This document shows positions 51,942 to 64,000 of a DNA stretch of 64,000 nucleotides, piece after piece. The notes below the pieces were generated by a model. That model had not been told where the DNA came from. It saw only the letters and a list, made by a program, of their open reading frames with translations, and made no database searches. The stretch is from Endozoicomonas elysicola. Lineage in GTDB: Bacteria > Pseudomonadota > Gammaproteobacteria > Pseudomonadales > Endozoicomonadaceae. The position numbers were made by a program, and so were the translations under genes. Each line of letters begins with the position of its first letter. Position 1 is the first letter of the stretch. The stretch lies in NCBI RefSeq assembly GCF_000710775.1, contig NZ_JOJP01000001.1, forward strand, positions 4,105,810 through 4,169,809. Direction: 5' to 3'.

Positions 51942-52820
51942 TCAGGCTCTGTTAACACCATTCAGACGACAGACCAGCCGGAACTGCCTTGGCGAGAGCT
52001 GAGTGTGCCTGCGGAAAAATTTGGCCATATTCGTCGCAGCATCGAACCCGGTTTTCTGTGAAATTTCCGATATGGGTTCATTACTGAATGCCAACAGTCG
52101 CTTGATTTCCTGCAACAACCGGATATCCAGAAGCTCCTTCACCGAGTGGCCGGTATTGTCCCTGGCAATCTTGTTCAGTTGTTTTCCAGTCACTCCCAAG
52201 ACAGCCGCATATTGGCTCACATTACGCGAAAATAGAAACTCAGACTCGATTAGCGCTTTCAGCTGGTCGTAGGGATTCCCACCAGCATGATCCGAGCAGC
52301 GCTCCATCAAAGATCGATACTGCCTGACCACCGTTTTCAGCATTATGGTTCTTAGCAGGGTTCTCACAATTTCTCCGCTGTAAAACGGACTATCACTGAT
52401 CATCTCGCTTTGAATCGCCTGAAACAAACTGAGCAGCGACAAGTCCTCATCTTCCAGCGTGTTAATGGAAGATAATGAGGTCATCATGAAATCCTGACAT
52501 GAGTCATCCCGGTTAAGGCGCAGAGACTCATCATCAAATGACAGGACAAAGCCAGCAACGGAAGGGTTGTAACAAAACTGATGAACCTGGTATCGGGAAA
52601 GAAAAAAAACGGTTCCGGGTTTCAGGCTGTACTTTTTATAATCAATAAAATGCTCACCCTTACCGGAAGTAATATAAATGATCGCATTAAAACAGATCCG
52701 GTGAGGCTTGATAGCCTGAGACAACCTGAGCTGATAAAACTGATCCATAGAAGACAGGTATAGATTACTGCCCTCAGTCGCCTCGGAAAGGTAAACGCTG
52801 TCAATATCTCGGTGTTGCAT
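51942..52820 (-). CDS. AraC-family transcriptional regulator
   Basis: 292 residues. The N-terminal cupin-like sensor (about 30-110: GKGEHFIDYKKYSLKPGTVFFLSRYQVHQF) resembles AraC ligand domains. The C-terminal pair of helix-turn-helix motifs covers about 190-285 (YAAVLGVTGKQLNKIARDNTG; ISEISQKTGFDAATNMAKFFRRHTQLSPRQFR). It is divergent from the small barrel gene at 53053 and borders the dehalogenase locus, so it is a candidate local activator; that link is inference. Confidence 0.88.
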   Translation of the reverse strand: MQHRDIDSVYLSEATEGSNLYLSSMDQFYQLRLSQAIKPHRICFNAIIYITSGKGEHFIDYKKYSLKPGTVFFLSRYQVHQFCYNPSVAGFVLSFDDESLRLNRDDSCQDFMMTSLSSINTLEDEDLSLLSLFQAIQSEMISDSPFYSGEIVRTLLRTIMLKTVVRQYRSLMERCSDHAGGNPYDQLKALIESEFLFSRNVSQYAAVLGVTGKQLNKIARDNTGHSVKELLDIRLLQEIKRLLAFSNEPISEISQKTGFDAATNMAKFFRRHTQLSPRQFRLVCRLNGVNRA

Positions 52821-53052: not shown

Positions 53053-53712
53053 GTGAAGCGTTTTCTTCTGGTGGCATTACTGACCACAGCCCCCCTCTTT
53101 TCTCTGGCAGACTTCAGCCTGGTAACCGGTAATATTCAGTTTCATGACGATCCTGAAATGAATGGCACCGACGCAAGCATGATGCTTGAGTTTAATCATT
53201 TCCTGGTGAATAACATTGACCGCGGACGGATGAGGCTGTTTGGTCGATTCGATGGTATTGTCGTAGGCGAGGTTGTTGAAGGCCGAAAAGGCAATAGTCC
53301 ATTTGTCACCGTTGGCCTGGAACAGGAATACAATCTCACCGATAAATTCTGGATCGCTGCCGGTTACCATCATACCATGCTGGAGGGAGAGCTTGTTTCA
53401 GCGCGTCCTCTGGTAAAAGCCGGGTATTTTTTTAACGACCAGCTTTCCTTTAAACATCGCACCCGCTTTCATATTGATAAGACGGGCACTAAAGACGACG
53501 ATGTCTATACCAATACCTACCTCATTTACAAACTGTCAAACCTTCCGGCCACGCTCCAATACAACCATGCGAAATTATGGGAAGTAAACTCAACCGATCA
53601 TGAGTTTCAGATCGCCTGGAACAGAAAAGGATTTCAACCATACATTGAGTATCGTGACCAGAAAGATGGGGAAACCAGTGCTTTTGTGCTGGGGGGATCC
53701 GTCAAGTTTTAG
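53053..53712 (+). CDS. Small outer membrane beta-barrel protein, Tsx-like
   Basis: 219 residues. A signal peptide covers about 1-19 (MKRFLLVALLTTAPLFSLA). The mature protein is all beta with amphipathic strands and ends FVLGGSVKF with the terminal Phe. GRMRLFGRFDGIVVGEV and FKHRTRFHIDKTG resemble the nucleoside channel Tsx and related 12-strand barrels. The start is GTG at 53053 with AGGA seven bases upstream. Located just before the dehalogenase genes; it might admit their substrate, which is a guess from position. Confidence 0.72.
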   Translation: MKRFLLVALLTTAPLFSLADFSLVTGNIQFHDDPEMNGTDASMMLEFNHFLVNNIDRGRMRLFGRFDGIVVGEVVEGRKGNSPFVTVGLEQEYNLTDKFWIAAGYHHTMLEGELVSARPLVKAGYFFNDQLSFKHRTRFHIDKTGTKDDDVYTNTYLIYKLSNLPATLQYNHAKLWEVNSTDHEFQIAWNRKGFQPYIEYRDQKDGETSAFVLGGSVKF

Positions 53713-53907: not shown

Positions 53908-55434
53908 GTGACTGACAGCAGCACGCGTGATGGCTTCAACACATCACGAAGAGACTTTCTTAAATTTGGGGGGCTGGCCGCAGCAGGCACCACACTGGGT
54001 GCAGCAGCAGGCGCAGGTTTTGTACTGGGGCGGGACCCTGATGCCAATGTCGGCTGGGGCCGGACTGAAGCGGGTAAAGACATGTTCTTTAACCGCAAGC
54101 CTTTTGAAGTGGATCATGCGCCGACACTGGAAATCGTTGGTCCGGTAGAACGGCCTGAATGGAGTGATTTCCTGTTCAACCGTTACCCGGTTATTGGTCA
54201 GGCCATTATGGATGGCTGGAACCCGAATAACGGCTGGGAAACCATCGAGGATGAGCGGGTTCGGGAATATTATTCACGACATCCTGATCGCTGGCCGGAA
54301 ATGTTACAGGCGTTTGTGGAAATGGACCGTCGCAGCCAGCACCGGGGAAAACACAGAGATCGCTTCGCTCTGGCCTGGGCCTATGGCAATGCCTACGACA
54401 AAGGGTTGATGACCGCCAACTTCCCTCCGGTTCCCTATGAACACCCGGATGTTGATGACTTCAAGTGGGTTAAGGGAGAACCGGCAAAATTCAAGTCACC
54501 CGCCCACGCATCAAAACTGGTCAAACAGATGGCTTTCAAGTTTGGCATGAGCATTGTCGGTATCACCAAACTGGATCACAGTTTCGTCTTTAAAAACATG
54601 ATGCGCATGGGGGGCAGCAACCGGAACTGGGGCGACGAAGTGCCCAAGCACTGGAAAAACATCATTGTCTTCGGCGCTCCTATGAACTGGGACCCAATGT
54701 ATGCCGCTGCTGGCTATTCTACGTCTTATGACGCTTATTTCCGGGCTCGTATGGCGACCGGCCTGATGACAGCCTGGCTGGGTGAACTGGGTTATGCCGG
54801 GCGCCCACAATGGCCTGGTCGTGACTATGAAGTCATTTTGCCACCCATTGCCATTCAGGCCGGCATGGGTGAGGCCTCTCGAAACGGCTGCCTGATGACA
54901 CCAGAACTGGGCCCGAACATTCGTCTGGCGGCAGTGATTACCAACCTCGATCTTGAGCCTGACAAGCCGGTGAACCTCCACATGCGGGAGTTCTGTGAAG
55001 AGTGCAAAATCTGTGCAGATGCCTGCCCAAGTGGATCCATCTCTCAGGCGGATAAGCCTGACGATGTTGTCCGTGGCTATAAAAAATTCAAGTTCAACCA
55101 GGACAGCTGCTTCCGTTTCTGGAGTACCGCACCCACCGATAATGGTAAGGGTTGTCGCATATGCATCGCCGTATGCCCATACACCCGGAAAAACAACTGG
55201 ATTCACACCGTGGTGAAAGAGATGGACCCCAGGGACCCATCCGGAATCACTCGTAAAGCACTGCTGGCCATGCAGCACAACTTCTTCTACTACCCGGAAG
55301 CGGAGGCCTACCACCCAGACTGGACCGGCGGTAATTTTGCCGGTTACCACGAACCACCGGAATGGCTGCGCACCGAAAACTATCTGGATGTAGAAAAAAC
55401 CTGGGAATACGACGGCAACTGGGAGGGTTTCTAA
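53908..55434 (+). CDS. rdhA: Reductive dehalogenase catalytic subunit RdhA, copy 1
   Basis: 508 residues. A Tat signal (TSRRDFLKFGGLAAAGTTLG, residues 12-31) exports the folded enzyme. The core is the corrinoid reductase fold shared with PceA and QueG, with the family block IAIQAGMGEASRNGCLMTPELGPNIRLAAVITNL near 315-350. Two 4Fe-4S sites follow: CEECKICADACP near residue 362, and C-F-R at 401 with GKGCRICIAVCP near 415. Other family members remove halogen from organohalides using a corrinoid cofactor in the periplasm. GTG start with GGAG five bases upstream. Followed without a gap by rdhB. The C-terminus is rich in Trp and Tyr. Substrate cannot be read from sequence; brominated marine aromatics are a guess. 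Confidence 0.88.
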   Translation: MTDSSTRDGFNTSRRDFLKFGGLAAAGTTLGAAAGAGFVLGRDPDANVGWGRTEAGKDMFFNRKPFEVDHAPTLEIVGPVERPEWSDFLFNRYPVIGQAIMDGWNPNNGWETIEDERVREYYSRHPDRWPEMLQAFVEMDRRSQHRGKHRDRFALAWAYGNAYDKGLMTANFPPVPYEHPDVDDFKWVKGEPAKFKSPAHASKLVKQMAFKFGMSIVGITKLDHSFVFKNMMRMGGSNRNWGDEVPKHWKNIIVFGAPMNWDPMYAAAGYSTSYDAYFRARMATGLMTAWLGELGYAGRPQWPGRDYEVILPPIAIQAGMGEASRNGCLMTPELGPNIRLAAVITNLDLEPDKPVNLHMREFCEECKICADACPSGSISQADKPDDVVRGYKKFKFNQDSCFRFWSTAPTDNGKGCRICIAVCPYTRKNNWIHTVVKEMDPRDPSGITRKALLAMQHNFFYYPEAEAYHPDWTGGNFAGYHEPPEWLRTENYLDVEKTWEYDGNWEGF

Positions 55435-55737
55435 ATGTTTCCACAATCCACACTGCTCGACCCTCTTTTCTGGATGGTACTGGGTGCAATACAGGTGCTG
55501 GTATTTGCCGGCGCCAATGAATGGGCAAAACACTATCGGCTTAATATGAATTGGTGGAAATGGGCCCTCGCCGGTGGCTGGTGGTTCAGCTTTGCCCTGA
55601 CCGTTGCCGGCGCTTTCACCCTGCTGGGAGAAAATGAAGGCAATGCAGGCTGGTACTTCCTTGGTTTTGTCGGTACCGGACTGATCATCGCGGGTGTAAT
55701 ACTCCTGCAGCTCATCTTAAAACTCCGTAACGCATAA
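55435..55737 (+). CDS. rdhB: RdhB-like membrane anchor, copy 1
   Basis: 100 residues with three hydrophobic helices (about 10-27, 42-64, 70-94), the size and topology of RdhB proteins that hold RdhA on the outer face of the cytoplasmic membrane. GENEGNAGWYFLGFVGTGLI is shared with copy 2. Starts right after the rdhA stop. Confidence 0.85.
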   Translation: MFPQSTLLDPLFWMVLGAIQVLVFAGANEWAKHYRLNMNWWKWALAGGWWFSFALTVAGAFTLLGENEGNAGWYFLGFVGTGLIIAGVILLQLILKLRNA

Positions 55738-55742
55738 TCAAT

Positions 55743-55772
55743 AGGCGCGGAATTATTATTAATTCAGCGCCT
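55743..55772. terminator. Long hairpin after rdhB copy 1
   Basis: AGGCGC-G-GAATTA, loop TTAT, TAATTC-A-GCGCCT: 12 paired positions with one mismatch. It lies five bases past the stop codon. No T-run, so it may be an mRNA-end stabiliser or partial terminator separating rdhAB1 from the downstream genes. Confidence 0.55.
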
Positions 55773-55791
55773 GCCTCATCTTAATTACAGA

Positions 55792-55805
55792 TCAGTAATT
55801 ACTGA
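55792..55805. promoter_or_regulatory. 14-bp perfect palindrome, CRP/FNR-type layout
   Basis: TCAGT-AATT-ACTGA has the five-four-five spacing of FNR (TTGAT-N4-ATCAA) and CprK (TTAAT-N4-ATTAA) sites, but other half-site bases. It lies about 125 bp upstream of the TPR gene. A partial FNR half-site GATCAA follows at 55810. Confidence 0.4.
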
Positions 55806-55931
55806 CCTGGATCAAAAACCTACCCCAAGGGCATTTTTCTACCTTTTTCCGGTATTTTCTGACCTTTTAAGCAGACTGCTGATCCTTATGATGGGCAACA
55901 TTTTATCGCTCTGGCGAAATTGCCACCAAGT

Positions 55932-57056
55932 ATGCCCATGATTTCTCAAAAATGGCTGGAGCTCTTCCAACAGCTTCAGCAGCAAACACACCCGTTTATT
56001 TCAGAGCCAGAGCTTCAGGAGCGACTGGAAACCCGACTTAACTTTCTCTCCAGTCAGTTCAGTAACCTCTCCCAGAAAGAGGACCCGCGCCATAAGGACT
56101 GGCTGGAGCATGAAACGGTTGCATCGGTCATCAGTGAACTGATGGGCAGGGAGCGGTTTTCTCCGGATGAGCTCAGAGCGCTGTTCAACCTGTTAATGCA
56201 GGTACAGCTGAGTCAGGTTGCACTGATTGTGATTAATCATGCTCAGTCAAAAATACCCGACGACGAGATTGCATTGAAACGTGGTCTCATCTTCCAGCAG
56301 ATGGGTGAGCAGGAACAGGCACTGGACAGCCTCAACAACGCCTGTGAACTGAACCCCGATAACCATCTGGCCTTTTACCATCGAGGTTTCTGTCTGTTAC
56401 TGGCAGGGAACATGGAGCAGGCGACAGAATCCTTTAAAACCTGCACCGAGCTGGCGCCGGACTTTGTTGGCGGTTATCAAAATCTTGCCGGTTGTTATTA
56501 CCAGCAAAGTGAGTTTGAGCTGGCAGTCAGTCAGTGTGAAGCGGTTTTTCAACGCAACCAGACCATTACACCCGCCTACATCACCGCCTTAAGTGCTTAT
56601 ATGGCACTGAATGATCTGGACAATGTCGGTATCTGGCTGGAGCGGGTAGAAGCACATCAGATTGTTTCACCGGAACTTTATCGACTGCACGGTCTGTATT
56701 CAGCGGCGAAAGAAGATCATGAAACCGCTGTTGACCAGTTTTCGGCCTACCTGGAGATCGCCGAAAGCAGCTTTGATGTCCTGCACTTCCGGGCGAAATC
56801 CCTCGCTGCGTCGGGACAGTGGCAACCCCTCCTTGACGACCTGGACATACTGCTGAGTATTGATGACAACGATCACTGGTGTCTTGAGCACCTGTTTCTT
56901 GCCCACTATCACTTGCAACACTGGTCAGATGCAGAACTCGTTTTCCAGAAACTGACGACACTGTCCGATCACTACCTTCACCACTTTCATCAAGAGCTGA
57001 AAGTCATTCGCTCTGAACACGCTGAACCGATTACTTTTGTTACAACCGGAGTTTAA
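55932..57056 (+). CDS. TPR-repeat protein inside the dehalogenase locus
   Basis: 374 residues, soluble, no signal peptide. At least four TPR units are readable from about residue 95: ALKRGLIFQQMGEQEQALDSLNNACELNPDN, LAFYHRGFCLLLAGNMEQATESFKTCTELAPDF, GGYQNLAGCYYQQSEFELAVSQCEAVF, and YRLHGLYSAAKEDHETAVDQFSAYLEI. It ends one base before the GTG of rdhA copy 2, so it is translationally tied to it. A maturation or Tat-handling chaperone for RdhA is plausible from position only; it is not the trigger-factor-like RdhT. The start is uncertain (TTG 55920, ATG 55932 or 55938). Confidence 0.75.
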   Translation: MPMISQKWLELFQQLQQQTHPFISEPELQERLETRLNFLSSQFSNLSQKEDPRHKDWLEHETVASVISELMGRERFSPDELRALFNLLMQVQLSQVALIVINHAQSKIPDDEIALKRGLIFQQMGEQEQALDSLNNACELNPDNHLAFYHRGFCLLLAGNMEQATESFKTCTELAPDFVGGYQNLAGCYYQQSEFELAVSQCEAVFQRNQTITPAYITALSAYMALNDLDNVGIWLERVEAHQIVSPELYRLHGLYSAAKEDHETAVDQFSAYLEIAESSFDVLHFRAKSLAASGQWQPLLDDLDILLSIDDNDHWCLEHLFLAHYHLQHWSDAELVFQKLTTLSDHYLHHFHQELKVIRSEHAEPITFVTTGV

Positions 57057-57057
57057 T

Positions 57058-58587
57058 GTGTCTAATCAAGTCAACGGTGAAGGTGCAGCCGTCACTTCCC
57101 GCCGTAATTTTCTTAAACTGGGGGGACTGGCAGCTGCAGGTACCACCATTGGTGCTGCCGCCGGTGCAGGCTTTGTTCTGGGACGGGATCCTGACGCCAA
57201 TGTTGGCTGGGGCAGAACCGAAGCGGGTAAAGATATGTTCTTTAACCGCAAACCGTTCGAGGTAGATCATGCTCCGACCCTGGAGGTTGTGGGCCCTATC
57301 GAACGCCCGGAATGGGAAGACTACCTGTTCAACCGCTTCCCGGTCATTGGCAAAGCCATTCAGGATGGCTGGGACCCCAACAATGGCTGGGAAACCCTGG
57401 AAGATGAACAGGTCAAAAAATACTACGCCCGTCATCCTGACCGCTGGCCGGAAATGCTGCAGGCATTTGTTGAACAGAACCATCGTGCTCAGCACCGGGA
57501 GAAGCACCGTGATCGTTTTGCCCTGGCCTGGGCCAATGGTCGCTCCTGGCTGAAAGGTCTGGAGCAATCCAATTTCCCGCCCAAGCCGGTGGACCATCCC
57601 GATATTGACGATTTCAAATGGGTACAGGGTGAACCCGCCGAGCTCCAGTCTCCAGCTCACGCCTCAAAGCTGATTAAAAAAATGGTCTTTACCTTTGGTG
57701 CCAGCATCGTCGGTATTACCAAACTGGACCCGGCATTTGTCTTCAAAAACATGATGCGCATGAAAGGTGGTAACCGTAACTGGGGTGAGGATATTCCAAA
57801 ACACTGGAAAAACATCATCGTCTTTGGTGTGCCCATGAACTGGGACCCAATGTATGCCGCCGCCGGTTACTCCACCTCCTACGACGGCTATTTCCGAGCC
57901 AAAACCGCTTCTGGGCTGCTTGCAGCCTGGTTAGGAGAACTGGGTTATGCGGCCAGACCACAATGGCCGGGTGGTGATTATGAAACGGTATTGCCGCCCA
58001 TCGCGATTCAGGCTGGCATGGGCGAATCCGCTCGCAACGGTGTCCTGATCACACCGGAGCTTGGACCAAACATACGACTGGCGGCAGTGATTACCAACCT
58101 GGATCTTGAGCCGGACAAACCCATTAATACCCATGTCCGGGCATTCTGTGAAGAGTGCAAAATCTGCGCGGATGCCTGCCCCAGTGGCTCCATCTCCAAA
58201 GCCAGCAAACCGGATTCCGTGGTTCGTGGTTTCAGAAAATTCGCGTTTAATCAGGACAGTTGCTATCGCTTCTGGAGTACAGCCCCGACCGACAGCGGCA
58301 AGGGTTGTCGCGTCTGTATTGCCGTATGTCCTTACACACGGAAAAACAACTGGATTCACACCATCGTGAAAGAGATGGACCCCAGAGACCCTACCGGCAT
58401 CACCCGTAAAACGTTGCTGGCCATGCAGCACAACTTCTTCTATTACCCGGAAGCAGAAGCGTATCACCCTGACTGGACTGGCGGTAATTTTGCCGGCTAC
58501 CACGAACCACCGGAGTGGCTGCGTTCGGAAAACTACCTCAAGGTCACCAAAACCTGGGAATACGATGGCAACTGGGAGGGCTTCTGA
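57058..58587 (+). CDS. rdhA: Reductive dehalogenase catalytic subunit RdhA, copy 2
   Basis: 509 residues, closely similar to copy 1 over the full length: the same Tat motif (SRRNFLKLGGLAAAGT), the GRDPDANVGWGRTEAGKDMF block, IAIQAGMGESARNGVL, and the two Fe-S motifs CEECKICADACP and GKGCRVCIAVCP. Differences cluster in residues 100-220, for example in the helix after HRDRFALAWA, where substrate pockets may vary. The GTG at 57058 follows GGAG by six bases and is preferred over the in-frame ATG-less extension to 57037. Stop overlaps the rdhB2 start by one base. Confidence 0.88.
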   Translation: MSNQVNGEGAAVTSRRNFLKLGGLAAAGTTIGAAAGAGFVLGRDPDANVGWGRTEAGKDMFFNRKPFEVDHAPTLEVVGPIERPEWEDYLFNRFPVIGKAIQDGWDPNNGWETLEDEQVKKYYARHPDRWPEMLQAFVEQNHRAQHREKHRDRFALAWANGRSWLKGLEQSNFPPKPVDHPDIDDFKWVQGEPAELQSPAHASKLIKKMVFTFGASIVGITKLDPAFVFKNMMRMKGGNRNWGEDIPKHWKNIIVFGVPMNWDPMYAAAGYSTSYDGYFRAKTASGLLAAWLGELGYAARPQWPGGDYETVLPPIAIQAGMGESARNGVLITPELGPNIRLAAVITNLDLEPDKPINTHVRAFCEECKICADACPSGSISKASKPDSVVRGFRKFAFNQDSCYRFWSTAPTDSGKGCRVCIAVCPYTRKNNWIHTIVKEMDPRDPTGITRKTLLAMQHNFFYYPEAEAYHPDWTGGNFAGYHEPPEWLRSENYLKVTKTWEYDGNWEGF

Positions 58588-58904
58588 TGTTTCCTCAATC
58601 AACACTGCTGGATCCACCATTCTGGATGCTTCTTGGTGCCCTTCAGGTACTGGTCTTTGCCGGGGCAGGTCAGTGGGCAAAACATGTTCAGCTGGCCATG
58701 AACTGGTGGAAATGGTCTTTGGTCGGCGGCTGGTGGTTCAGCCTGCTGCTAACCATCGCCGGCGCCTTTACCCTGCTGGGTGAAAATGAAGGCAATGCTG
58801 GCTGGTACTTCCTTGGTTTTGTTGGCACTGGCCTGATTGTGGGTGGGGCCATATTGCTCAAAGTACTGTTTGTGCTCAACAAACCGGCCGCAAATCAATC
58901 CTGA
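58587..58904 (+). CDS. rdhB: RdhB-like membrane anchor, copy 2
   Basis: 105 residues, three helices, close paralogue of the anchor at 55435 (MFPQSTLLDP start, NWWKWSLVGGWWFS, GENEGNAGWYFLGFVGTGLI). Begins in the TGATG overlap with the rdhA2 stop, so longer upstream frames are shadows of rdhA. Confidence 0.85.
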   Translation: MFPQSTLLDPPFWMLLGALQVLVFAGAGQWAKHVQLAMNWWKWSLVGGWWFSLLLTIAGAFTLLGENEGNAGWYFLGFVGTGLIVGGAILLKVLFVLNKPAANQS

Positions 58905-58912
58905 TAATAACC

Positions 58913-58932
58913 GGGGCCACAGGGCCCCTTTT
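58913..58932 (+). terminator. Compact hairpin with T-run between rdhB2 and rdhC
   Basis: GGGGCC, tetraloop ACAG, GGCCCC, TTTT. It resembles a short intrinsic terminator or attenuator placed between the catalytic and electron-transfer genes, perhaps lowering downstream expression. Confidence 0.55.
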
Positions 58933-58940
58933 GAAATGCA

Positions 58941-60218
58941 ATGAAATCACAACATCATGCAGGTCATGGGGCAGTGGACACCCGTAGAAATAAGTCCAAC
59001 AACAATAAGCGACAGAAAATAAGGCAGCTGCCGGAAAAACTGGCCGTCATCGGGTCAATCATCCTGCTGATCATCGCCTGGGTACTGGGCGGGGCCCGCC
59101 TGTCAAATCTGGAAACGGAACAGCTCAGCCACTTACTGCCTGAGAATGCCCAAATCGTAACCACTGACCAGAGTACGCTGAAGATAACCACCAACGCCGG
59201 ACAGGATACTCAATGGCTCAGTCAGGGGTCAGGGGTTGGCTACGGCGGAAAAATGGATATTGCACTGATGATTGATGATCAGGGTGTCATCAAGCAGCTG
59301 GCAATCCTCTCCTCCAGGGAGACCGCTTCCTATCTGCAGAAAATAATCGCCGCTAAATTCCCTGAACAGATGGTCGGCCAGTCCATTAACAACATCCTTC
59401 AAGTGGATGCCATCAGCGGCGCAACCCTGTCTTCCTCGGCCATTCTACGGGGTGCCAATCTGGCCGCGGAACCGGTGCGACAGGAGCTGATGAACTTAAG
59501 CCTGGTGGGTAGCAGAAGCCCATGGTCGTATTTTGGCTGGATGGATCTGGTCGCCCTGCTGGCATTTGCTGCCGCCTGGCAGATCAGCAAAACCCGTCAC
59601 CCACAGCGAAAGAAAATGGAATGGGGATTGATGCTTACCAGCCTGGTGCTGTTTGGTTTCTACGCCTCTGCGCTCTTTTCTTCATCAACACTGGGGATTC
59701 TGATTTCCGGCACCTGGATTTCCGGCCTGGGTAATTATACGCCACTTATCCTGCTGGTCCTGACCGTTGTCACCTTGTTGTCCACCAACAAAAACCTGTA
59801 CTGCGATATGATCTGTCCATTCGGAACCACTCAACAGTGCCTGGCAAAAATTACCAACCCACCGACGGTGACACTAAAGCACAGTATTTTTACCTGGCTG
59901 CCCAGAGTCATTTTTCTGGCTGTGCTGGCCGCCGGGCTCTATTTCCGAAATCCGGCAACCATCGCCTACGAACCCTTTGGCATCATGTTCGGCATGACCG
60001 GTTCAATCCAGCTGTTCATCCTGACCTTTGTGATCATTCTGACGTCATTGATGATCTACCGGCCCTGGTGCAAAACCCTCTGCCCGGTTGGCGCCATGAC
60101 GGACTTCCTGAAATTTATCAAAGCCTGGGGTAAGCAGGGTCTGAAAGATTACCAGCGCAAGACAAAGACAACATCAGCTCGCCCGGCCAACAACATACCT
60201 CACCGGAGTCTGTCGTAA
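58941..60218 (+). CDS. rdhC: RdhC/NosR-like FMN-binding, polyferredoxin-type membrane protein
   Basis: 425 residues. A first helix (about 33-52) leads into a periplasmic FMN-binding domain with covalent attachment motif DAISGATLSS near 153. Five more helices follow (about 198-215, 228-246, 260-285, 315-335, 345-367). Two CxxxCP motifs on the membrane face, CDMICPFG near 288 and CKTLCPVG near 377, are those of NosR, NapH and RdhC. It probably moves electrons across the membrane or to RdhA; a role in RdhA maturation has also been proposed for the family. Its stop overlaps the next start by one base. Confidence 0.87.
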   Translation: MKSQHHAGHGAVDTRRNKSNNNKRQKIRQLPEKLAVIGSIILLIIAWVLGGARLSNLETEQLSHLLPENAQIVTTDQSTLKITTNAGQDTQWLSQGSGVGYGGKMDIALMIDDQGVIKQLAILSSRETASYLQKIIAAKFPEQMVGQSINNILQVDAISGATLSSSAILRGANLAAEPVRQELMNLSLVGSRSPWSYFGWMDLVALLAFAAAWQISKTRHPQRKKMEWGLMLTSLVLFGFYASALFSSSTLGILISGTWISGLGNYTPLILLVLTVVTLLSTNKNLYCDMICPFGTTQQCLAKITNPPTVTLKHSIFTWLPRVIFLAVLAAGLYFRNPATIAYEPFGIMFGMTGSIQLFILTFVIILTSLMIYRPWCKTLCPVGAMTDFLKFIKAWGKQGLKDYQRKTKTTSARPANNIPHRSLS

Positions 60219-60451
60219 TGGAAAAAGGTTCATTCAGGAAAAGTGTGGCGTTCGCCTTTTTCACCGTTGCCTCAGGGCTGGTTATTTTCAGTGGATTTAA
60301 TGCTGTCGGACAGTTGAGCAGAACATCCGACAACCTCCAGCCGGTTTATATCACTCAGGAACAGGTGGAAACCTCTACAGAACAGCCAGCGATCAAATTA
60401 AACACTGAACAGTGGAAAAAGCTGGATATCATCAAAGATATGACGGAGTAA
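60218..60451 (+). CDS. Small single-span protein of the dehalogenase locus
   Basis: 77 residues. One membrane helix (VAFAFFTVASGLVIFSGF, about 10-27), followed by a polar 50-residue tail outside (QPVYITQEQVETSTEQPA) without cysteines. The ATG overlaps the rdhC stop by one base and nifJ starts seven bases after its stop, so it is embedded in the operon. No known family recognised. Confidence 0.75.
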   Translation: MEKGSFRKSVAFAFFTVASGLVIFSGFNAVGQLSRTSDNLQPVYITQEQVETSTEQPAIKLNTEQWKKLDIIKDMTE

Positions 60452-60458
60452 CCGGCTG

Positions 60459-63400
60459 ATGTCAATGTCACCTGCAAGCCGCCTGGCCACTATGGATGGT
60501 AATGAAGCAGTCGCTTCTGTCGCCTACCGCTGCAATGATGTGATCGGTATCTATCCGATTACGCCCTCTTCTCCCATGTCTGAAACCTGTGAGTTATGGG
60601 AAAGCCAGGAAAAAACCAACTGCTGGGGAGTCATTCCCAAAATCATGGAGATGCAGTCCGAGGGAGGCGCTGCAGGTGTGGTTCATGGCGCACTGACCGC
60701 AGGTGCCATGTCAACGACGTTTACGTCATCCCAGGGACTGCTGCTGAAAATCCCCAATATGTACAAAATTGCCGGGGAGCTGACGCCTTTTGTCATGCAT
60801 GTGGCAGCCCGAACCCTGGCAACCCATGCCCTGTCCATCTTCTGTGACCATTCCGATGTCATGGCGGCCCGGCAAACCGGGTTTGCCATGCTGTCTTCCG
60901 GCTCCGTGCAGCAGGCTCACGATTTTGCCCTGATCAGTCAGGCAGCAACCCTTGAGTCCCGCATTCCTTTCATGCACTTTTTTGACGGCTTCCGTACCTC
61001 CCATGAGATCAACAAAATTTCATGGCTGAGTGATGATCTCATCAAGGCAATGATCAGTCAGGAAGCACTGGACGCGTTTCGACGCCGCGGGCTCACCCCT
61101 GATAACCCCTCCATCCGGGGTACCGCACAAAACCCGGACGTATTCTTTCAGGCCAGGGAAGCCATCAACCCTTACTATCAGGCCTGCCCGGATATTGTGG
61201 CTGAGAAAATGTCACAGTTTGCCGAACTGACGGGAAGAGAGTATCGCCTGTTTGATTATTACGGCCATCCAGAAGCAGAGCATGTCATCGTGATCATGGG
61301 GTCTGCTGCCAGCACGGTGCAACAGGCGATCGATGAGTTATTGCCGCTTAACCAGAAGGTGGGGGTTATTGCCATTCACCTGTTCAGGCCTTTTTCACTG
61401 AAGCACTTCCTCGCCGTATTACCCGATACCACCCACTGTCTTACCGTGCTCGACCGAACCAAAGAGCCCGGTTCATTGGGTGAGCCCTTGTATCAGGACG
61501 TGGTGACGGCCATTTTACAGTCGGGACGGCAGAGCCTTCCCAAGGTCGCTGGCGGACGCTACGGTCTTTCCTCAAAAGAGTTCAACCCAAACCACGCCAG
61601 AGCTATTTTTGCGGCCATGCACAATGGTACGTTGCAACATAACTTCACCGTGGGCATTGTGGATGATATCTCAGGTTTGTCCTTACCCGCCCCTCAGACC
61701 AGCCTGGAACCCAAACGACAGCTTAATGCTATATTCTATGGGCTTGGTTCGGATGGAACGGTCAGTGCCAACAAAAATACCCTGAAAATCATCGGCGAAC
61801 AGACCCCGCTGAATGTACAGGGCTACTTTGTTTACGACTCCAAAAAATCCGGCAGTGTCACCACCTCCCATCTGCGTGTTGATCAGCACCCCATTGAAGC
61901 GCCTTATCTGATTCAGCAAGCCAGTTTCATTGCCTGTCACCAATTTGATTTTATTTATCGCCTGGAGATGTTTGAGCAGGCTGCCGACGGTGCAACGCTG
62001 CTGCTCAACTCACCCTGGCCAGCCGGAGAAACCTGGAATCATCTCCCACAGGAAGTTCAGGCCGTTATCCTTCAGCGACGATTAACGCTGTATGTGATCG
62101 ATGCAGCAGCCATTGCCGAAAAGCTGGGCCTGGGTAAACGGCAGAACACCATTCTGCAAACCGCTTTCTTTGCCATCAGCCAGATACTGCCCATGAAACA
62201 GGTTCGCCAGCTGTTAAAAGAGAGCATTGCCAAAAGTTATGGGAAAGCAGGCCCAGCCATCGTTGAAGCCAATCAACAGGCAGTTGATGAAACAGAGCAG
62301 TACCTGCAGCTGGTCACGATTCCAGAGAGTATCAACAGCACCCTGTTCCGTACCCCGGTCATCAGCGAGCACAGCCCTGAGTGGGTACAAAAGGTCACGG
62401 CCCTGATACTGGCCAATAAAGGGGATGCCCTGCCCGTCAGTGCATTCCCGGTTGACGGCTGCTGGCCAACCGCCACCAGCCAGTGGGAACGGAGAAGTAT
62501 TACCACTGAAATTCCACAATGGACTCCGGAACACTGCACCCAGTGTAACCAGTGCAATCTCATGTGCCCACACGGTGCTATCCGAAGCAAGCTGGTCAGT
62601 CCTGAGCAGCTTGACGATGCGCCTGCGTCGTTTACTTCAATGCCCTATCAATATCGTGATTTCACTGACCAGTTATTCACGTTACAGGTCTCCCCCGACC
62701 ATTGTACCGGCTGCGGTGTATGCACCCAGATATGCCCTGCGAACCGTAAGGGCGATACCTTAACCATGGTGGCAAAAGCCCCCATTCTGGAAACACAGCG
62801 GCAAAACTACGAATTCATGTTGGATTTGCCTGACCTCAAACGGATCCAACTAAAGCGGATTGACGGACGCAACAGCCAACTGTTGAGGCCGCTGTTCGAG
62901 TATTCCGGTGCCTGCAGTGGTTGCGGTGAAACCCCTTACATCAAGCTGCTGACCCAGCTGTTTGGTGACCGGCTGATGGTTGCCAATGCCACCGGTTGCT
63001 CTTCAATCTATGGCGGCAACCTGCCAACCACACCGTATTCAAAAAACCATGAAGGCCAGGGGCCTGCCTGGGCAAACTCTCTTTTTGAAGATAATGCCGA
63101 GTTCGGGCTGGGAATGCGACTGGCCAGCAGCAGCCGCAGGTCCTATGCACTGGAACAGCTGTCATTAATAGCTGACGACCTGCCTGATGAGCAGAAGCAG
63201 CAGATTTTGCTGGATGCCTTTGATCACAGCGAGTCCGCCGTTGAACGTCAACGTCAGACTATTCAGCAATTGGAAGAAACATTTGGGAACCTTGACTACC
63301 TGAAGGACCTGGTGGAGAAAAGCCACTGGATCATCGGTGGCGATGGCTGGGCTTACGATATCGGTTTTGGCGGCCTCGATCATGTGCTGTCCAGTGGCGA

Positions 63401-63962
63401 AAATATCAACGTCCTGGTCATGGATAATCAGGCATACGCCAACACTGGCGGACAGCAATCCAAAGCGACCCCAACCGGTGCCGTGGTCCGTTTTGCCAAC
63501 CGGGGTAAACAGGGCAAAAGCAAGGACCTGGCCATGAGCATGATGCTGCAGGGCGGTATTTACATCGCCAGGATTGCCATGGGAGCCAATATTAACCAGA
63601 GCTTAAAAGCCCTACAGGAAGCGGCGGATTACCCCGGGCCATCACTGGTGATCGCTTATGCCGCCTGCATTACCCACGGTATCGATATGAGCTGTGGTAT
63701 TGAGCATCAGCAGCAGATGGTGGATACCGGTTTATGGCCACTGTACCGGTTTGACCCAAGACGCTTTGACCAGGGTAAAGCTGCGCTTCAGATGGACTCC
63801 AGGACACCCAGAAAGGATGTTCGGGAACTGCTGACCAGCGAGTCCCGCTTTAACCAGATATTACAGAAAAACCCTGCCCGGTTTCAGGCCTATACCGACA
63901 GCCTGCGGCAACAGGTTCAACATCAGCACACCTTGCTGAATCAATTAAAGGAATGGAAATAA
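60459..63962 (+). CDS. nifJ: Pyruvate:ferredoxin (flavodoxin) oxidoreductase
   Basis: A 1167-residue single-chain enzyme oxidising pyruvate to acetyl-CoA and CO2 and reducing flavodoxin or ferredoxin. Domain order matches the family: pyruvate domain I (GNEAVASVAYRCNDVIGIYPITPSSPM, residues 6-32), domain II, the two-cluster ferredoxin domain (CTQCNQCNLMCP near 693; CTGCGVCTQICP near 749), then the TPP domain with the third-cluster CSGCGE near 818, GDGWAYDIGFGG near 961 and MDNQAYANTGGQ near 988. Oxygen-sensitive in most organisms, so expression is probably under low oxygen. It lies downstream of rdhC and upstream of a flavodoxin. Confidence 0.95.
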   Translation: MSMSPASRLATMDGNEAVASVAYRCNDVIGIYPITPSSPMSETCELWESQEKTNCWGVIPKIMEMQSEGGAAGVVHGALTAGAMSTTFTSSQGLLLKIPNMYKIAGELTPFVMHVAARTLATHALSIFCDHSDVMAARQTGFAMLSSGSVQQAHDFALISQAATLESRIPFMHFFDGFRTSHEINKISWLSDDLIKAMISQEALDAFRRRGLTPDNPSIRGTAQNPDVFFQAREAINPYYQACPDIVAEKMSQFAELTGREYRLFDYYGHPEAEHVIVIMGSAASTVQQAIDELLPLNQKVGVIAIHLFRPFSLKHFLAVLPDTTHCLTVLDRTKEPGSLGEPLYQDVVTAILQSGRQSLPKVAGGRYGLSSKEFNPNHARAIFAAMHNGTLQHNFTVGIVDDISGLSLPAPQTSLEPKRQLNAIFYGLGSDGTVSANKNTLKIIGEQTPLNVQGYFVYDSKKSGSVTTSHLRVDQHPIEAPYLIQQASFIACHQFDFIYRLEMFEQAADGATLLLNSPWPAGETWNHLPQEVQAVILQRRLTLYVIDAAAIAEKLGLGKRQNTILQTAFFAISQILPMKQVRQLLKESIAKSYGKAGPAIVEANQQAVDETEQYLQLVTIPESINSTLFRTPVISEHSPEWVQKVTALILANKGDALPVSAFPVDGCWPTATSQWERRSITTEIPQWTPEHCTQCNQCNLMCPHGAIRSKLVSPEQLDDAPASFTSMPYQYRDFTDQLFTLQVSPDHCTGCGVCTQICPANRKGDTLTMVAKAPILETQRQNYEFMLDLPDLKRIQLKRIDGRNSQLLRPLFEYSGACSGCGETPYIKLLTQLFGDRLMVANATGCSSIYGGNLPTTPYSKNHEGQGPAWANSLFEDNAEFGLGMRLASSSRRSYALEQLSLIADDLPDEQKQQILLDAFDHSESAVERQRQTIQQLEETFGNLDYLKDLVEKSHWIIGGDGWAYDIGFGGLDHVLSSGENINVLVMDNQAYANTGGQQSKATPTGAVVRFANRGKQGKSKDLAMSMMLQGGIYIARIAMGANINQSLKALQEAADYPGPSLVIAYAACITHGIDMSCGIEHQQQMVDTGLWPLYRFDPRRFDQGKAALQMDSRTPRKDVRELLTSESRFNQILQKNPARFQAYTDSLRQQVQHQHTLLNQLKEWK

Positions 63963-63967
63963 CTTGT

Positions 63968-64000
63968 ATGGCAACTATTGCAGTTATCTACGGCAGTGAC
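63968..64000 (+). CDS. Flavodoxin, first 11 codons (cut by the window edge)
   Basis: ATG five bases after the nifJ stop encodes MATIAVIYGSD, matching the first strand and start of the FMN phosphate loop of flavodoxins (…GSxTGNT). As an electron acceptor of NifJ it would fit the operon. Only 33 bases are present, so the identification rests on this short string and on context. Confidence 0.6.
   Translation, partial: MATIAVIYGSD

Follow-up and report, generated by a model that had tools for sequence, protein, structure and literature searches.

A recurrent rdhC-sm-nifJ-fld linkage in Endozoicomonas elysicola and Vibrionaceae, and its possible role in electron supply to periplasmic reductive dehalogenases

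How a periplasmic reductive dehalogenase (RdhA) obtains electrons of sufficiently low potential is the question raised by a gene cluster at the end of a 64,000-nucleotide stretch of the Endozoicomonas elysicola genome (NZ_JOJP01000001.1, positions 4,105,810 to 4,169,809; hereafter the window), where two rdhA-rdhB pairs stand in line with rdhC, a small gene (sm), nifJ for pyruvate:flavodoxin oxidoreductase and fld for flavodoxin. PMC5928378 and PMC7031245 state the supply of electrons to RdhA from menaquinol as an unsolved problem of organohalide respiration, and the former gives a potential of -350 to -370 mV for the Co(II)/Co(I) couple of RdhA and one of about -74 mV for menaquinol. Our answer, to which we give an even chance, is that a dedicated NifJ and flavodoxin feed low-potential electrons from the cytoplasm via RdhC to periplasmic RdhA. 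Pyruvate oxidation lies near -500 mV and flavodoxin near -400 mV, and a flavodoxin-fed transfer to RdhA would be downhill.

In the window the four genes lie on the plus strand. The gene rdhC (58941..60218) encodes a membrane flavoprotein with a flavin mononucleotide (FMN) motif and two CX3CP motifs (PF04205 FMN_bind, PF12801 Fer4_5), and sm (60218..60451) a protein of 77 aa with a single transmembrane-like segment. NifJ (60459..63962) scores 1593.9 bits against the TIGR02176 cut-off of 911.35 and carries two 4Fe-4S motifs, while fld (63953..64000 in the window) was named from reading its sequence on L002 (763-1272) rather than from a family search; its open reading frame (ORF) begins at 63953, with a likelier start at 63968, crosses the window end and stops at about 64462. 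The first-pass annotation of this DNA had named a linkage seen only in this strain as the finding that would speak against it. Related genomes were searched and confinement to this strain is rejected, since contiguous rdhC-sm-nifJ(-fld) is shared by the window, E. ascidiicola and 6 of 30 RdhC-bearing Vibrionaceae, eight genomes in total, all of which carry an rdhA over the TIGR02486 cut-off. For the Vibrionaceae, 329 genomes were searched with queries from Photobacterium obscurum (G433), which gave 46 matches for NifJ at 1e-150 and 30 for RdhC at 1e-40. It turned out that rdhC is followed by sm and nifJ in G433, G513, G541, G689, G718 and G719, and that fld comes next in five of them (the G513 contig ends inside nifJ, and nifJ of G541 is split over two overlapping frames). 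The other 24 rdhC loci contain nifJ in none of their 1.5 kb flanks, and 22 of them have rdhA or rdhB beside rdhC (the flank of L172 has neither, and L178 holds broken rdhC pieces).

The position of the cassette relative to rdhA is informative. In the six Vibrionaceae with the cassette, all seven window-type rdhA-rdhB-AraC clusters found are without rdhC (L216, L025, L215, L143, L208, L209 and L210, of which L215 is a 3.6 kb contig without the tetratricopeptide-repeat (TPR) gene). The cassette lies about 24 kb from the window-type rdhA in G718 and G689 and 145 kb from it in G719, is divergent from it in G541, and stands directly downstream of another RdhA type in G433 and G513. For example, G433 carries rdhA-rdhB-rdhC-sm-nifJ-fld elsewhere in its genome with an RdhA only about 28-29% identical to those of the window, and thus the cassette is joined to two RdhA types that are this far apart. 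Some of these genomes encode further RdhC-like proteins, of greater distance, close to the other RdhA type (L025, L212, L213, L214). The nifJ-linked protein is thus unique in them as a close RdhC but not as an RdhC-like protein. In the window and E. ascidiicola, both halves, rdhA-rdhB and rdhC-sm-nifJ-fld, are united in one cluster. NifJ-Fld travels with RdhC(-sm), not with RdhA, and therefore electron delivery to RdhC is favoured over RdhA maturation or mere co-regulation. In G689 the genes directly upstream of the cassette (L138 3679-8855, assigned by Pfam) encode a CbiK-like protein that is extended at its N-terminus, together with ABC, FecCD and periplasmic-binding proteins, and L137 of G718 has ORFs of matching sizes.

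The dehalogenases themselves appear genuine. RdhA1 (53908..55434) and RdhA2 (57037..58587), both on the plus strand, score 160.7 and 165.7 bits and are narrowly above the TIGR02486 cut-off of 160.35, and RdhA2 aligns over its core with PceA (4uqu, E 8.6e-32) and NpRdhA (4ras, E 4.3e-28). All 57 distinct RdhA frames collected (35 window-type and 22 others) keep the catalytic Tyr and Arg, which match PceA Y246 and R305, and the eight Fe-S (iron-sulphur) Cys of two 4Fe-4S motifs. The twin-arginine (RR) motif is present in 54 of the 57 frames, the remaining three being gaps, and in both window proteins, where PF10518 gives 24.2 for RdhA1 (over its cut-off of 22.7) and 19.5 for RdhA2 (under it). 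The possibility that they are mere QueG relatives was rejected, with TIGR02486 beating TIGR00276 by more than 100 bits for both and the Tyr and Arg of the reductive dehalogenase type kept. PF13486 matched neither RdhA nor anything in the window genome, but it was equally silent in all 14 control genomes and is uninformative on absence. A plasmid search returned distant RdhA or QueG only (20 records below 60% identity), and in the class sample of 369 genomes only that of the window matched RdhA2 at 1e-80. Within its family, G024 and G027 (L033, L034, L068, L069, L071-L073) contain 10 TIGR02486 matches each, fragments and QueG included, which is unusually many for Gammaproteobacteria.

RdhA2 sits in a conserved core. 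When genome contigs were scanned with RdhA2, 30 loci came up in marine Gammaproteobacteria, from Photobacterium, Vibrio, Aliivibrio, Enterovibrio, Shewanella, Ferrimonas, Psychromonas and Endozoicomonas. The order TPR-rdhA-rdhB-rdhC-AraC is found on one strand in 20 of the 30 loci, another two, from Ferrimonas, deviate solely by having the AraC gene on a different strand, and the rest are cut, rearranged or without rdhC. Among these loci, nifJ-fld was present within the fetched stretch only at L003 (E. ascidiicola).

To characterize RdhC, we compared it with its homologues. The first-pass annotation had called it a NosR/RdhC-type FMN and Fe-S membrane protein; the FMN part stands, on the FMN_bind match and the FMN motif, while its Fe-S content is less secure, because RdhC has the two CX3CP motifs only and not the C-terminal pair of 4Fe-4S motifs. 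All 31 homologues aligned keep the Thr of the FMN motif and the two CX3CP motifs without change. A crude hydropathy plot gives five segments, and the topology assumed here (six helices, FMN domain outside) is taken from PceC. A small ORF similar to sm follows rdhC in all eight core loci read by eye and also in the cassettes. Between the 8 nifJ-linked RdhCs and 29 others (eleven more distant rows left out), several columns differ: T305 in 8 of 8 versus 0 of 29, K378 in 8 of 8 versus 1 of 29, M290 in 7 of 8 versus 0 of 29, and Q/E227 in 8 of 8 versus 1 of 29; M231, I168 and Q119 are likewise common to the linked proteins. Among the eleven excluded rows T305 occurs once and K378 never. M290 and K378 fall inside the two CX3CP motifs and would be cytoplasmic if the PceC topology holds, further shared residues lie close to these motifs, and I168 and Q119 are located in the FMN domain. 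Besides, some frames of 1270-1400 codons from other Proteobacteria end C-terminally in an RdhC-like FMN/CX3CP region (L236, L238-L240, L242); examined as candidate NifJ fusions, they gave no NifJ match (and no RdhA match either), and their extra part, judged by eye without a family search, resembles a spermidine-synthase-type protein.

NifJ may have been recruited more than once. The NifJ tree comprises 34 of 49 distinct frames, with 11 hcp-type and 4 ordinary ones dropped; the NifJs of G513 and G541 were never among the 49, owing to the contig end and the two overlapping frames. In this tree the window and E. ascidiicola proteins group with the hcp-nifJ-fld type of Photobacterium (99/98), and the rdh-linked NifJs of Vibrionaceae form a separate clade (100/100) with three unlinked ones. 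A single clade of the six rdh-linked NifJs was rejected (p 7.9e-6), and one clade with the three unlinked near relatives added was marginal (p 0.0495), the test groups having been named after the tree was seen. Two recruitments of NifJ are thus likely, not certain. In the tree of 48 full-length RdhC frames, the eight linked RdhCs were not recovered as one clade, and a single clade was not rejected either (p 0.173). Three NifJs of the Vibrionaceae cassette type stand without rdhC (G539, G692, G701). The hcp-nifJ-fld arrangement, a Prismane-family gene beside NifJ and flavodoxin, is recurrent in Photobacterium (L096, L097, L102, L110-L128) and is possibly a dedicated donor for the hybrid-cluster protein.

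The gene order rdhA-rdhB-TPR-rdhA-rdhB-rdhC-small membrane protein-nifJ-flavodoxin, with its coordinates, was confirmed in the window, whose genome (G000, 5.6 Mb) belongs to the same genus as G004. The plus-strand cluster at the window end begins with a porin-like gene and rdhA1-rdhB1, and after a gap of 182 bases continues with TPR-rdhA2-rdhB2-rdhC-sm-nifJ-fld. The small membrane anchor rdhB1 (55435..55737) is assigned by position and by homologues after rdhA in other loci, its protein giving no match in family searches, and rdhB2 (58587..58904) by ORF position and related loci. The TPR protein (55920..57056) matches TPR families and has homologues adjoining rdhA in most related loci. Because of the +182 gap, rdhA1-rdhB1 may be a separate unit. 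From the TPR gene onward the spacing is tight: -20 bases for TPR/rdhA2, -1 for rdhA2/rdhB2, +36 for rdhB2/rdhC, -1 for rdhC/sm, +7 for sm/nifJ and -10 for nifJ/fld (about +5 at the later ATG). The overlapping or near-touching genes reported earlier are therefore present, and they would be co-transcribed, but a hairpin in the rdhB2-rdhC gap qualifies their co-expression. This gap (58905-58940; z -3.4) contains a GC-rich hairpin of -12.4 kcal/mol (58913..58928, plus strand) and then TTTT, so that expression across it is possibly attenuated. Strong folding (z <= -2.5) of the rdhB-rdhC gap was found in 10 of 13 loci versus 3 of 11 control stretches, the hairpin sequence differs between genera, and the hairpin may set the ratio of rdhAB to rdhC-nifJ-fld expression.

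With regard to regulation we looked for TTGATnnnnATCAA, the FNR consensus. Of 21 TPR-first loci, many of which are closely related, 15 have a site with no more than one mismatch to it at 89-143 bases ahead of the TPR match, and in all 4 cassettes tested exact FNR-like sites stand upstream of rdhC. The sites of the window (55802..55815, plus strand) and E. ascidiicola have two mismatches and lie 104 and 106 bases upstream of TPR. AraC-family regulator genes flank the window cluster on both sides, one upstream on the minus strand (51942..52820; HTH_18 and AraC_binding) and one past the window end (L002 1368-2255). Between the former and rdhA1 is the porin-like outer membrane protein gene (53053..53712, plus strand), which has weak beta-barrel matches only and is possibly a cluster member; an 81% identical copy stands downstream of fld on the opposite strand in E. 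ascidiicola (L003), and substrate uptake is perhaps its role.

On the proposed scheme, the system would consist of periplasmic corrinoid-dependent reductive dehalogenases (two RdhA-RdhB pairs) with their own cytoplasmic source of low-potential electrons. NifJ would oxidize pyruvate with coenzyme A and reduce flavodoxin, flavodoxin would dock at the cytoplasmic face of RdhC near the CX3CP motifs, and RdhC would carry electrons outward across the membrane to its FMN on the periplasmic side, from which they would reach the Fe-S clusters and the Co(II)/Co(I) couple in RdhA. The uphill step from quinol to RdhA would thereby be avoided. The pyruvate to flavodoxin to RdhC route had been put forward in the first-pass annotation, and it gains from the recurrence of the cassette and from its following RdhC even where rdhA is elsewhere; "without quinol" is a conjecture. 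Several observations weigh against it. NifJ is not general: among the genomes of 25 of the 30 RdhA2-scan loci, searched whole, it is over the cut-off in 10 and not in 15, so that nifJ-fld is an addition, the idea that this Rdh system always requires NifJ is rejected, and RdhC can evidently work with another donor. In the window's genus, 3 of 12 genomes have an RdhC match and 2 of 12 the cassette; the third genome with a match, G011, carries an RdhA as well as an RdhC-like protein of a different type (30% identical) and gives no NifJ match. The order sample matched in 5 of 394 genomes and the phylum sample in 11 of 398, and of the 17 loci that they returned, nifJ was in the flanks only at G433 and the window; with no further linked locus in the genus, order and phylum samples, the linkage rests on two families. 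No docking domain for ferredoxin or flavodoxin is recognisable in RdhC. Fifteen RdhC columns passed the filter, several of them in the FMN domain, the emphasis on four is our choice, and the shared residues may be explained by common descent, a single clade being compatible with the tree. Finally, the boxes of the window and E. ascidiicola are not significant alone, with 11% and 26.5% of shuffles as good.

The strongest competitor, which we nevertheless consider rather unlikely, is co-regulated anaerobic metabolism, in which NifJ-Fld is an ordinary low-oxygen PFOR pair under a shared promoter and quinol is the donor of RdhC, as has been suggested for PceC. It would accommodate the core RdhCs that work in genomes without NifJ, the nifJ-fld pairs beside hcp and without rdhC in many Photobacterium, and the rdh-linked NifJ of E. 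ascidiicola, the only one found in that genome; PMC7031245 also puts flavodoxin before menaquinone. However, in cassettes 24-145 kb from rdhA, NifJ-Fld follows rdhC-sm and not rdhA or other metabolic genes. The window genome, moreover, already has a second, ordinary nifJ, to which the divergent rdh-linked copy is 52% identical, and a plain fermentative role of the latter is therefore less likely. A cytoplasmic role in maturation, in which NifJ-Fld provides the reductant for loading or activating corrinoid and Fe-S clusters in RdhA ahead of Tat (twin-arginine translocation) export, is improbable: flavodoxin reduces other cobalamin enzymes such as MetH, NifJ-Fld is cytoplasmic and RdhA is folded before export, but NifJ-Fld goes with RdhC and not with RdhA, and it is missing from most of the related RdhA clusters. 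Marginally less probable still is a general injection of electrons into the periplasm for several clients (e.g. iron or tetrapyrrole uptake) with RdhA as one of them, which the CbiK-like and transporter genes upstream of the cassette in G718 and G689 would suit, but this neighbourhood is limited to two close relatives, and RdhA is a sufficient client there since both also carry a window-type rdhA-rdhB cluster without rdhC.

Returning to flavodoxin-fed RdhC, we tentatively extend it, with the balance somewhat against the extension, to rdhC-sm-nifJ-fld as a portable module that would drive pyruvate-derived electrons outward to periplasmic dehalogenases by way of flavodoxin and a membrane flavoprotein, without quinones, assembled at least twice by marine bacteria, attached to two dehalogenase lineages, and with RdhC re-tuned at its cytoplasmic face for flavodoxin instead of quinol. 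Because the cluster encodes no ion pump, an electron sink for acetyl-CoA and ATP formation at low oxygen is likelier than classical respiration; the substrates are perhaps marine organobromines. An RdhC joined to pyruvate-fed flavodoxin would be a thermodynamically easy answer to the supply of RdhA and a compact system for probing the donor of RdhC, and, if true, facultative marine bacteria and symbionts of animals would use dehalogenation to dispose of electrons.

The first-pass annotation knew of no description of such a pathway, and this agrees with what was surveyed of the literature: a partial survey of the accessible portions of papers including PMC5928378, PMC7031245, PMC6511854, PMC12908670, PMC11334425, PMC12090745, PMC4585668, PMC4751268, PMC3403914, PMC13101508 and PMC10463259 gave no prior account of rdhC-nifJ-fld linkage. 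PMC4585668 proposes a path from ferredoxin via complex I to quinone, and PMC10463259 describes ferredoxins beside NpRdhA-type genes. The pceABCT/rdhABC systems of Dehalobacter and Desulfitobacterium (PMC5928378) are alike in the RR-signal RdhA, the corrinoid and Fe-S residues, the RdhB anchor, and the FMN motif and two CX3CP motifs of RdhC, but PceC is proposed to be fed by menaquinol, whereas the window rdhC is joined to sm-nifJ-fld. The same source notes RdhC sequences of Vibrio, Photobacterium and Ferrimonas; the Rdh clusters of these genera share the TPR-rdhA-rdhB-rdhC-AraC core, and most, unlike the window, are without nifJ-fld beside rdhC. For Desulfoluna DBB, PMC7031245 likewise proposes a chain that contains pyruvate oxidation, flavodoxin and RdhC (from Por to flavodoxin, then to menaquinone or Qmo, and finally to RdhC), but there electrons pass via menaquinone with reverse transport, and rdhC-nifJ-fld linkage is not described in the part surveyed. 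NosR, NapH and RnfG resemble the window RdhC in the FMN domain and CX3CP membrane module and give low-scoring matches, all far below the curated cut-offs, and the window protein differs in having no C-terminal 4Fe-4S motifs. The nifJ-nifF pair of nitrogen fixers also places a single-chain NifJ beside a flavodoxin. So does hcp-nifJ-fld of Photobacterium, with whose NifJ the rdh-linked one of Endozoicomonas groups, but that pair adjoins a Prismane-family gene and is without rdhC. In conclusion, the Rdh core of marine Gammaproteobacteria and the features of RdhABC are known, and the rdhC-sm-nifJ-fld linkage found by our comparison of sequences appears to be new.

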